Below, one piece after another: positions 13,823 through 39,118 of a stretch of 64,000 nt of DNA. The DNA is taken from contig JAJFUB010000055.1 of assembly GCA_021372615.1 (NCBI GenBank), forward strand, positions 1 to 64,000, in the 5' to 3' direction. The position numbers and the translations under genes are program-made. Positions within the stretch are counted from its first letter, which is position 1. Every line of letters starts with the position of its first letter. Source of the stretch: a bacterium (lineage in GTDB: Bacteria; Armatimonadota; Zipacnadia; Zipacnadales; UBA11051). The notes beneath the pieces are model-generated. The model saw only the letters and a list, made by a program, of their open reading frames with translations, made no database searches and had not been told where the DNA came from.

Positions 13823-13934
13823 GCTGAGCTTAAGAGGATGTAGAGGATAACGGCAAGGATGTCGAGGATGAATGGAGGATGCCGTTCATCCTCGAGATCG
13901 TCGTTCCCATCCTCGCCATCCTCTCAAGCTCAGC
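13823..13934. repeat. AGGATG-type inverted repeat without an ORF (hisD-hisB gap)
   Basis: GCTGAGCTTAAGAGGATG (13823-13840) pairs with CATCCTCTCAAGCTCAGC (13917-13934) with one mismatch, and the inside is filled with AGGAT/ATCCT runs. The composition matches the arms around the GxxExxY gene at 17841-18377, as if this were an empty version of the same element. Confidence 0.7.
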
Positions 13935-15759: not shown

Positions 15760-15770
15760 TTGCCTGCCGG

Positions 15771-15832
15771 TACGCCCGACACTCCTGTCGGGCGGTTCAC
15801 CGGACACGCGCCCGACAGGAGTGTCGGGCGTA
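15771..15832. repeat. Long perfect inverted repeat between GNAT and hisA
   Basis: The 24-bp arms at 15771-15794 and 15809-15832 are exact reverse complements with a 14-base loop. Each arm is itself partly palindromic (CCCGACA ... TGTCGGG). It lies 22 bases before hisA and could act as an RNA hairpin. Confidence 0.8.
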
Positions 15833-15854
15833 CCAACCGATACGGGAATCCGTC

Positions 15855-16975: not shown

Positions 16976-17031
16976 CCGCAGCCCTGACAGCCAATACAGT
17001 GACCCGCCGCGTGCGGGAGTTGAGGAGCCTC

Positions 17032-17835
17032 ATGCTAGCCAAACGCATCATTCCCTGTCTCGACGTGACCGGTGGCCGCGTGGTCAAGGGCGTCAAGTAC
17101 ATTGACCACGTGGACGCGGGCGACCCCGTCGAGCAGGCCGCCAACTATGACCGCCAGGGCGCCGATGAACTCGTCTTCCTGGACATCACCGCCTCCCTCG
17201 ACCACCGCGAGATCATGCTCGACATCGTCCGCCGTGTGGCCGAGCAGGTGTTCATCCCGTTCACCGTCGGTGGCGGTGTGCGCAGCGTCGAGGACATCCG
17301 CGAGATACTCAAGGCCGGGGCCGACAAGACCTCGATCATGACCGCGGCCATCAAGGACCCCGACCTGGTCAACCGCGGCGCCGAGCGCTTCGGCAGCCAG
17401 TGCATCGTCGTGGCCATTGACGCCAAGCGCGTCCCGCGCGAGGGTCGCGATGACAGCAACCTCGGCTACGCGCCCGACGAGGACATCGAGTGGGTCGTCT
17501 ACACCCACGGCGGCCACACGCCGACCACGGTGGATGCGCTCCAGTGGGCGCAGGAAGCCGAGGAGCGCGGCGCGGGCGAGTTCCTCGTCACCAGCATGGA
17601 CGCCGACGGCACCAAGGCCGGCTATGACATTGAGCTGCTCCGGCGCATCAGCGAGAAGGCCGGCATCCCCGTCATCGCCTCCGGCGGCGCGGGCAGCGTG
17701 GACCACCTGTACGAGGCGCTGACGCTGGGGAAGGCCGACGCTGTGTTGGCGGCGAGCATCTTCCACTTCGGCGAGACGACGGTGCAGGATGTGAAGCAGG
17801 AACTGAAGGCCAGAGGCGTAGACATACGGATTTGA
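17032..17835 (+). CDS. hisF: Imidazole glycerol phosphate synthase, cyclase subunit
   Basis: Uses PRFAR and ammonia from HisH to give IGP and AICAR. 267 residues. The N-terminus is [20 protein letters not shown] with catalytic Asp11, and the second catalytic Asp is in IVVAIDAKR. Phosphate loops are FTVGGGVRS and IASGGAGS. The ATG at 17032 follows TGAGGAG and matches the family start; an in-frame ATG at 16999 is ignored. Confidence 0.97.
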
Positions 17836-17840
17836 GGAAC

Positions 17841-18377
17841 GGAAGACAGGATGTAAGGATGGAAGGATGGGGAGGATACGGCAGAGGCCAACGGCATTGC
17901 CAGGGGGTAGGGGCAGTGGAGCACGAGGAGTTGACGGGGCGGATCATCGGGGTGTGCTATGAGGTGGCGAACGAGCTGGGGCATGGGTTCCTGGAGTCGG
18001 TGTACCAGAAGGCGCTGGCCATGGCCTTGGCGCAGGAGGGGCTGGCAGTGGCCCAGCAAGTGCCACTCAAAGTGTCCTTCCGTGGAGAGATCGTCGGGGA
18101 GTTCCTGGCTGACATTGTCGTTGAGGGCACCGTCATCCTGGAGCTGAAGGCCGTCTCCGCACTCGCGTCCGAACACAGCGCACAGCTCATCAACTACCTG
18201 AAGGCGAGCGGACAGGACGTCGGCCTGCTCGTGAACTTCGGCCGGCCGAGCATCGAGGTCAAGCGCTGCTGGCGCCCCAAAGTCGCCGTGCCAGAACAGT
18301 AGCCGGCCGTCAATCCGTTCATCCTTGCCATCCTTATATCCTTACATCCTGTTGCCGTTGCCGTTGCCGTCATCCTT
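17841..18377. mobile_element. Possible GxxExxY cassette flanked by AGGATG inverted repeats
   Basis: ACAGGATGTAAGGAT (17846-17860) is exactly repeated in inverse at 18338-18352, with further AGGAT runs outside and inside, bracketing one small ORF. The whole block separates hisF from hisI. There is no transposase. The palindrome-plus-ORF layout and a similar empty palindrome in the hisD-hisB gap suggest a non-autonomous mobile cassette. Confidence 0.5.
17916..18302 (+). CDS. GxxExxY-motif protein (PD-(D/E)XK nuclease-like)
   Basis: About 129 residues from the GTG at 17916, which follows GGGGGTAGGGG and matches the usual start ([17 protein letters not shown]). The diagnostic motif is GFLESVY. 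A nuclease-like core follows: [18 protein letters not shown] has the D...E-x-K arrangement of PD-(D/E)XK folds. The family is widespread, often in multiple copies per genome, with no established function. An ATG at 17832 overlapping the hisF stop would start inside the inverted repeat and is less likely. Lies between inverted repeats within the his operon. Confidence 0.85.
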
Positions 18378-18394: not shown

Positions 18395-18778
18395 ATGTCT
18401 GTAGTTGACGAACTCAAGTTCGATGCCAACGGCCTCATCCCCGCCATCGCCGTGGACGCGGAGACGGGTGAAGTGCTCATGGTTGCCTACATGAACCGCG
18501 AGTCCTTCCAGGCGACCGTGGAGACCGGCCATGCCACGTACTGGAGCCGGTCGCGGCAGCAGTTCTGGGTCAAGGGGGAATCGTCCGGCCATCTGCAGAA
18601 GGTAAAGTGGATCCGCACCGACTGCGACAAGGACACGCTGCTGCTCGGCGTCGAGCAGGCCGGCGTGGCCTGTCACACCGGCCGTCGCAGTTGCTTCTTC
18701 TACGAGCTGCGCGACGGGCAGTGGTGCGAGACCTGCGAGCCCGAGGTGGATCCTGACGAGATCTACCACCGCAAGTAG
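18395..18778 (+). CDS. hisI: Phosphoribosyl-AMP cyclohydrolase
   Basis: Opens the purine ring of PR-AMP. 127 residues, a monofunctional HisI without the HisE pyrophosphohydrolase domain. Zinc and magnesium ligands are in [17 protein letters not shown] (DCD) and [11 protein letters not shown]. The start is ATG 18395 after CCCTGAGGAC. hisE is not found nearby, so PR-ATP hydrolysis must be encoded elsewhere. Confidence 0.96.
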
Positions 18779-36721: not shown

Positions 36722-36762
36722 CGGCGGGAATCGGGATTCGGGATTCGGGAACCGTAACGACA

Positions 36763-36800
36763 ACGGCCCCGCCTCGTCTGAGGCGGGGCCGTCTTGCTGT
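36763..36800 (+). terminator. Terminator after glmS (family G hairpin, copy 1)
   Basis: ACGGCCCCGCCT / AGGCGGGGCCGT with a short loop, then CTTGCTGT. Similar hairpins occur at 38161-38196 and 39080-39118. Confidence 0.8.
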
Positions 36801-38160: not shown

Positions 38161-38196
38161 ACGGCCCCGCCTCGGTTGAGGCGGGGCCGTTTGTCT
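38161..38196 (+). terminator. Terminator hairpin (family G, copy 2)
   Basis: ACGGCCCCGCCTC / GAGGCGGGGCCGT with loop GGTT, then TTGTCT. It corresponds to the hairpin after the real glmS. Confidence 0.75.
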
Positions 38197-38237
38197 CCTC
38201 GGGGAACGACAGTCGTCCCGGCTCTCCAGGTCGTGCG

Positions 38238-38900: not shown

Positions 38901-39079
38901 CAGCCTCCCTGCGCCGTCCGGGCGCACCTGACTCGGTCCCCCAGAGGGACCGTGCGACTTTGTGCCTGCGTTCGTGCCGTGGCTGTGCCGCGACGGGCGT
39001 AAGTCTATGCCTCAGCCCCATGACTGTCGAGGTCTATGTTGTGTAGTGAGGTAACACATACGTGTCCCAGGAACGACAA

Positions 39080-39118
39080 CGGCCCCGCCTCAGGAATGAG
39101 GCGGGGCCGCTTCGTTCT
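39080..39118 (+). terminator. Terminator-like hairpin (family G, copy 3)
   Basis: CGGCCCCGCCTCA / TGAGGCGGGGCCG with loop GGAA, then CTTCGTTCT. It sits between divergently oriented genes with no gene ending into it, so here it behaves as a repeat more than a terminator. Confidence 0.6.

Follow-up and report, generated by a model that had tools for sequence, protein, structure and literature searches.

RESULTS

The cassette between hisF and hisI

The window, by which we mean the whole 64,000-nucleotide stretch of DNA that was analysed, contains a his operon in which one small gene, enclosed by inverted repeat arms, lies between hisF and hisI. The features of this region, and a gene-less copy of the arms elsewhere in the operon, are as follows.

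13823..13934, no strand assigned: gene-less copy in the hisD-hisB gap of the same his operon, with AGGAT-type arrays that face each other
17032..17835, + strand: hisF, intact upstream neighbour (TIGR00735; GTG start at 16999 in the open reading frame list, ATG at 17032 read from the sequence)
17846..17877, + strand: 5' arm, ACAGGATGT-AAGGATGG-AAGGATGGGG-AGGAT read inward
17916..18302, + strand: GxxExxY gene, 128 aa (PF13366/TIGR04256); the GTG start at 17916, after GGGGTAGGGG, is proposed from the sequence
17928-18266: 113-aa domain whose numbering is used for the PD-(D/E)XK core (E23, D62, E72-x-K74, Q86, Y90)
18321..18352, - strand: 3' arm, reverse complement ACAGGATGTAAGGATATAAGGATGGCAAGGAT
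18353..18377, + strand: outer GCCGTTGCCGTTGCCGTCATCCTT-type stretch; other arms in the same genome (L005, L011, L004) have comparable GCCGTT/CATCCT stretches on their outer side
18395..18778, + strand: hisI, intact downstream neighbour (NF000768)

An earlier note on this DNA had described a perfect 15-bp inverted repeat around a single GxxExxY gene that splits hisF from hisI, and both the repeat and, through its profile matches, the gene are borne out. Positions 17846-17860 (ACAGGATGTAAGGAT) and 18338-18352 are exact 15-bp reverse complements, and the repeat is in fact longer, extending beyond this core to arms of 32 nt (17846-17877 and 18321-18352) that are 88% complementary, with 443 nt between them; in a gapped alignment they reach 17838-17881 and 18315-18359. 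The arm score of 49 was equalled by none of 5,000 dinucleotide shuffles of both intergenic stretches (maximum, 39) and by none of 3,868 random placements of identical geometry within the 64-kb window (maximum, 31). Each arm is an imperfect tandem array of a ACAGGATN/AAGGATGN unit and not a simple palindrome. The hisF-hisI gap measures 559 bp here versus 32 bp in G001, the closest of the relatives searched (hisF 92% identical), a comparison between genera in which the intergenic sequence is too diverged to align; a profile search of that relative gave no PF13366 match among the matches listed.

The GxxExxY protein

The protein scores well above the curated cut-offs of TIGR04256 (E 1.7e-41; 141.3 bits versus 35) and PF13366 (E 4.7e-40; 137 bits versus 22), the latter being its sole match in a Pfam search. 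E23, D62, E72, K74, Q86 and Y90 are invariant in all 27 aligned GxxExxY sequences, and we take the E...D...ExK...Q residues among them to have the catalytic roles of a PD-(D/E)XK core. An AF2 model (pLDDT 97) has as its closest solved fold Cas4 SSO0001 (4ic1; Z 10.3, rmsd 3.3, 95 aligned residues), followed by middling matches to Hjc (Z 7.7) and XisH-family proteins (Z 6.2-6.6). A family's absence from this list of fold matches does not exclude kinship. Foldseek, which returned nothing below E 0.001, has R2 endonuclease in its own list. A sequence search of solved structures gave no relative, with one chance-level match (E 0.47). By fold and active-site layout, the GxxExxY protein is a predicted Cas4/Hjc-like PD-(D/E)XK nuclease.

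Unsaturated dS was obtained for 17 of 33 pairs, which gave dN/dS values of 0.028-0.123; ratios this low indicate that purifying selection keeps the gene functional. Such strong selection, and the fact that some lineages have long kept the gene where it is, would suit a gene that benefits its host just as they would a selfish one. Among plasmids, only 8 of 72,556 records matched the protein, none of them reaching 60% identity, and 50,697 phage records gave no match.

Related repeats in the source genome

The earlier note had called GxxExxY genes multi-copy families, but in the source genome the family is not a high-copy one, with two genes; the second copy (L001) also lies between inverted AGGAT arrays, and a family search with its flanks showed these not to be syntenic. 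The pattern AGGATGGAAGGATG, with at most one mismatch, has 14 matches in this genome (reversed control, 0). Some of these form gene-less inverted pairs (L005 and L004), others are single or direct (L006 and L009), and at L011 (1495-2380) AGGAT-type inverted arms in the style of the GxxExxY cassette surround a HigB-like toxin gene and an HTH gene. The gene-less copy in the hisD-hisB gap scores 37, compared with a random-placement maximum of 31 that was, however, computed for another geometry. Arms in the source genome take the ACAGGATGNAAGGATG form, and the exact ACAGGATNNACAGGAT form has no match there.

Other repeats were also seen. GGCCCCGCCTCGNNTGAGGCGGGGCCGT hairpins recur in the window at 36759-36792, 38161-38208 and 39061-39109, and a REP-like 26-nt inverted pair, GGTACGCCCGACACTCCTGTCGGGCG, lies directly upstream of hisA (15769-15794 and 15809-15834). 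An abundant short dispersed repeat, with dozens of near-identical copies, occurs at about 870-910 and 1105-1140 of L001 and on many contigs of G000; it is apparently unrelated to the arms.

Arms at GxxExxY loci in general

For the arm test, we reverse-complemented the stretch 3' of each gene and aligned the 5' stretch to it, with a threshold of 33, the 95% level of mismatched pairs. The test was applied to 42 loci of the same phylum and to a multi-phylum set of 80 loci, 4 of which were dropped. A single peptide pattern had served to select this second set, as the top 80 among at least 589 confirmed places, and the GFLE subfamily is over-represented in it as a result; its loci exceeded 33 in 55 of 76 cases versus 1 of 393 shifted windows. 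The profile searches within the phylum contributed best-scoring loci only, and 40 extra stretches were picked from multi-copy genomes. Pooling, with removal of 9 duplicates and 3 partial proteins, left 157 unique loci, of which 7 with less than 100 bp of flank were dropped.

In this pooled set, 125 of 150 GxxExxY loci have arms (score of at least 33) and 25 do not, while the controls gave 4 of 462 shifted windows and 0 of 750 shuffles. None of 29 hisI control loci had arms (the window's own hisI being left out). The shifted-window and hisI controls rule out ordinary intergenic repeats such as might surround any gene. The earlier note had named as its refutation a lack of association between GxxExxY genes and such repeats elsewhere; the search for it gave the opposite result. 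Judging from record titles, with names partly translated, the arm-bearing loci of the multi-phylum set span Planctomycetota, Chloroflexota, Acidobacteriota, Desulfobacterota, Gammaproteobacteria, Bacillota and Bacteroidota, and they also occur in Spirochaetota, Verrucomicrobiota, NC10, Patescibacteria, Sumerlaeota, FCPU426 and Methanosarcinales.

The arms consist of direct tandem units (e.g., ACAGGAT), with a best period of 8, 9 or 10 nt in 210 of 244 arms, and the unit varies by locus (ACAGGATN, CGCAGATN, CACGGATN, AAGGGATN, CACAGAGN, CACGGAGN and CACGAATN all occur). The median distance from 5' arm to domain is 83 nt. At two loci, the cassette reading frame begins within its own 5' arm (L080 at 2959, L079 at about 2959), so that the arm encodes the first residues, MDLQDGQDK and MDRQDGQDM, respectively.

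Correspondence between arm and nuclease

Between different genomes, arm similarity is correlated with protein identity (Mantel r 0.307, reached by 0 of 2,000 permutations), and when labels were permuted only within genomes, again 0 of 2,000 reached this value (mean 0.205, sd 0.024). From 20-45% to 65-80% protein identity, arm similarity rises from 0.064 to 0.334, whereas over the same range there is almost no change in the outer flanks (0.072 to 0.077) or the inner spacers (0.056 to 0.073); above 80% identity, where there are only 9 pairs, spacers and flanks rise too. Inner spacers (r 0.102) and outer flanks (r 0.047) have weak correlations of their own with the protein, so part of the arm-protein correlation reflects common descent. 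Linked descent alone, however, should mark the spacers too, yet it hardly does, and this comparison, which takes no account of phylogeny, points to recognition of the arms by their own GxxExxY protein.

Arm class likewise follows subfamily. GLLE proteins have GAG-type arms at 14 loci and GAT-type arms at 2, and GFLE proteins have GAG-type arms at 2 and GAT-type arms at 63 (Fisher p 7e-12), which makes four discordant loci (two GLLE with GAT and two GFLE with GAG); the remaining 44 of the 125 loci fall into neither class for arms or protein. Where both subfamilies are present in one genome, the arm class of every classed copy matches its protein in four genomes (G065, G059, G112 and G108), and one copy is discordant in each of two others (G009 and G105).

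Movement and gene-less copies

A cassette from Desulfuromonadales (L079) and one from Nitrospirae (L080) are 77.5% identical across the 436 bp that run from one arm to the other; outside, identity falls to background. The neighbours differ as well: hsdR- and hsdM-like ORFs at the former and a response-regulator-like ORF at the latter (names from translations only). Here one unit stands in different contexts and homology stops at its ends, as is characteristic of a mobile element, and the conclusion that the arm-gene-arm unit has moved between genomic contexts and phyla is supported by these sequence comparisons. No target-site duplication was seen by eye at these two loci or at the gene-less copies, nor was any insertion seen to be polymorphic between strains. 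A genus-level search for the empty site of another cassette (L071) found the flanking genes apart in relatives and no clean empty site.

Arm pairs also occur without the gene. In L079 and L095, one sits in frame within the hsdM-like gene that adjoins the GxxExxY cassette; L111, L075 and L078 lack it, and this region is variable in other respects as well. The Pelotomaculum genome that carries L093 (G226) has four gene-less pairs whose ends are common with the gene-bearing copy. Exact ACAGGATNNACAGGAT matches number 62 in this genome and 94 in G225 (reversed controls, 0), and the latter has many further gene-less pairs, 12 of which were picked and read. Among 201 genomes of the phylum, ACAGGAT arrays are present in 18 of 58 with GxxExxY versus 7 of 143 without (p 2e-6), and three or more array matches in 9 of 58 versus 1 of 143 (p 7e-5), "without" meaning outside the 58 positives of the profile search, with some assemblies incomplete.

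S23-type and Y1 transposase loci

Genes for PF05635 four-helix proteins from the same phylum (L158-L187, with L177 in the source genome) are bracketed by inverted heptamer arrays; 23 of 28 score above 33, 2 of 30 having been dropped before the count. The best period was 7 or 14 in 28 of 48 of these arms, and they differ from the GxxExxY arms in all six genomes in which the two could be compared. As expected, the Y1 transposase genes of the phylum had arms of REP type, with scores above 33 at 20 of 30. In the window, a gene-less inverted heptamer pair of AGGGTCG-AGGGTCA-AGGGT, in the style of the four-helix arms, lies at 2560-2578 and 2606-2624.

DISCUSSION

The computation supports four points: the unit is general, the protein corresponds to its arms, the unit has moved in the past, and gene-less copies exist. 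Taking these together, the hisF-hisI insert (17846-18352, about 507 bp) is probably a minimal mobile cassette, composed of inverted AGGAT-unit arms and one small Cas4/Hjc-like nuclease gene, and constructed in the manner of RAYT-REP units around an unrelated enzyme. The suggestion of the earlier note, a mobile cassette with palindromic ends, thus stands as regards the cassette (arms at 125 of 150 loci, cross-phylum homology, gene-less copies) and gives way as regards the ends, which are tandem octamer-like arrays. From the correspondence of protein and arm sequences, we infer that the nuclease may act on its own arms. It would bind their octamer arrays as DNA, whether in a strand that the inverted arms have folded or in duplex form, and would nick or cut there, starting copying or insertion; anything between cognate arms could then be moved, whether the nuclease's own gene or, in trans, gene-less copies. 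In function, the nuclease would thus correspond to the RAYT transposase, to which it is unrelated.

One alternative is that the arms serve another mobility enzyme, such as an HUH transposase, and that GxxExxY is cargo, much as the HigB-HigA-type pair of L011 would be. That cassette does have the same arm type with HigB-like toxin and HTH genes in place of the nuclease, and of the 25 genomes in which exact ACAGGAT arrays occur, 7 show no match to PF13366. Within single genomes, however, arm type follows nuclease type, which is unexpected for cargo, and the Y1 transposase genes of the phylum have REP-type hairpins, with no octamer array visible by eye among the arms listed. We therefore think a passenger role unlikely. 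The arms may instead be operators, bound by the nuclease or by an inactive version of it to regulate its own gene and the genes beside bare copies, mobility being old and passive. Arms close upstream of the gene (a median of 83 nt from the domain), strong purifying selection and the protein-arm correspondence would all suit such a role, yet it leaves the second, inverted copy 3' of the gene superfluous, and homology confined to the cassette across phyla points to movement as a unit; regulation as the main function thus seems to us highly doubtful.

Complementary arms close around an ORF also raise the question of whether they pair in the transcript, as a stem that is processed (by RNase III) or protects the mRNA. 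According to the available part of PMC4990558, stems like this are present in the S23 intervening sequences of 23S rRNA. Over the 125 loci, however, G-U-compatible mismatches number 146 versus 164 non-wobble transitions, and neither the gene-less copies nor the in-frame copies within the hsdM-like gene would need a stem of this kind. Given the absence of any wobble excess, we dropped this reading as extremely improbable.

On the mobile-cassette reading, the GxxExxY cassettes of many unrelated bacteria would seem to be very small mobile DNA elements, of a class that has been overlooked. A broader and more tentative proposal, which we consider possible and rather less than probable, is that GxxExxY proteins are the enzymes of undescribed minimal mobile elements of many phyla, Cas4-like PD-(D/E)XK nucleases that recognize inverted octamer arrays and move these elements with no known transposase, and that S23-type genes with their heptamers are a second class, of which the rRNA intervening sequences are a special case. 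In the literature covered, with subscription papers and preprints outside its scope, we found no description of arms at GxxExxY genes. GxxExxY is named there in unrelated contexts, in the portions of the papers available, and the available portion of PMC4679880 describes TAACTGA heptamers without naming such a gene. The cassette reading offers a testable function for a widespread protein family of unknown role, as well as an origin for the short AGGAT- or CACAGAG-type repeats scattered in environmental genomes, and the heptamer bracket of S23-type genes could help explain the source of rRNA intervening sequences.

Comparison with known systems

Several known systems share features with the cassette. 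Its nuclease resembles Cas4 and Hjc nucleases, the R2 endonuclease and XisH in fold and active-site layout, but has no sequence relative among solved structures, and we know of no Cas4/Hjc, R2 or XisH nuclease that lies between octamer arms of its own. Like MITEs, REPINs and Rickettsia palindromic elements, the arms form gene-less inverted pairs, also in frame within a coding gene. What sets the present case apart is the identification of a copy in which the same ends enclose a gene, that of its own nuclease. S23 intervening sequences and their PF05635 genes are also compact units with one small gene and inverted ends, but their protein is unrelated, their repeat unit is 7 nt rather than 8-10 nt, and the GxxExxY copy described here lies in a his operon and not in rRNA.

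The closest parallel is with RAYT-REP units (REPtrons; TnpA_REP), which also combine a short gene between its own inverted repeats, repeats that co-evolve with the enzyme, and gene-less copies elsewhere. The two differ in their enzyme, which here is a predicted PD-(D/E)XK protein and not of the HUH/Y1 type, and in their repeats, which are tandem arrays of 8-10 nt rather than single REP palindromes; moreover, dN/dS is low for GxxExxY, whereas rayt genes are described as fast evolving in the available part of PMC2817692. As far as the available parts of PMC2817692 and PMC8266576 go, the evidence for RAYTs was that the gene is flanked by its own inverted repeats, that repeat and enzyme co-evolve, that there are gene-less copies, and that the presence of the gene correlates with REP abundance, much as the presence of GxxExxY goes with array abundance. 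Since the lines of evidence in that part of PMC2817692 are the same as those assembled here for an unrelated nuclease, the cassette resembles a known kind of unit. If the nuclease does work on its arms, it would represent a second, independent invention of the RAYT-REP lifestyle, built around a Cas4-like enzyme.
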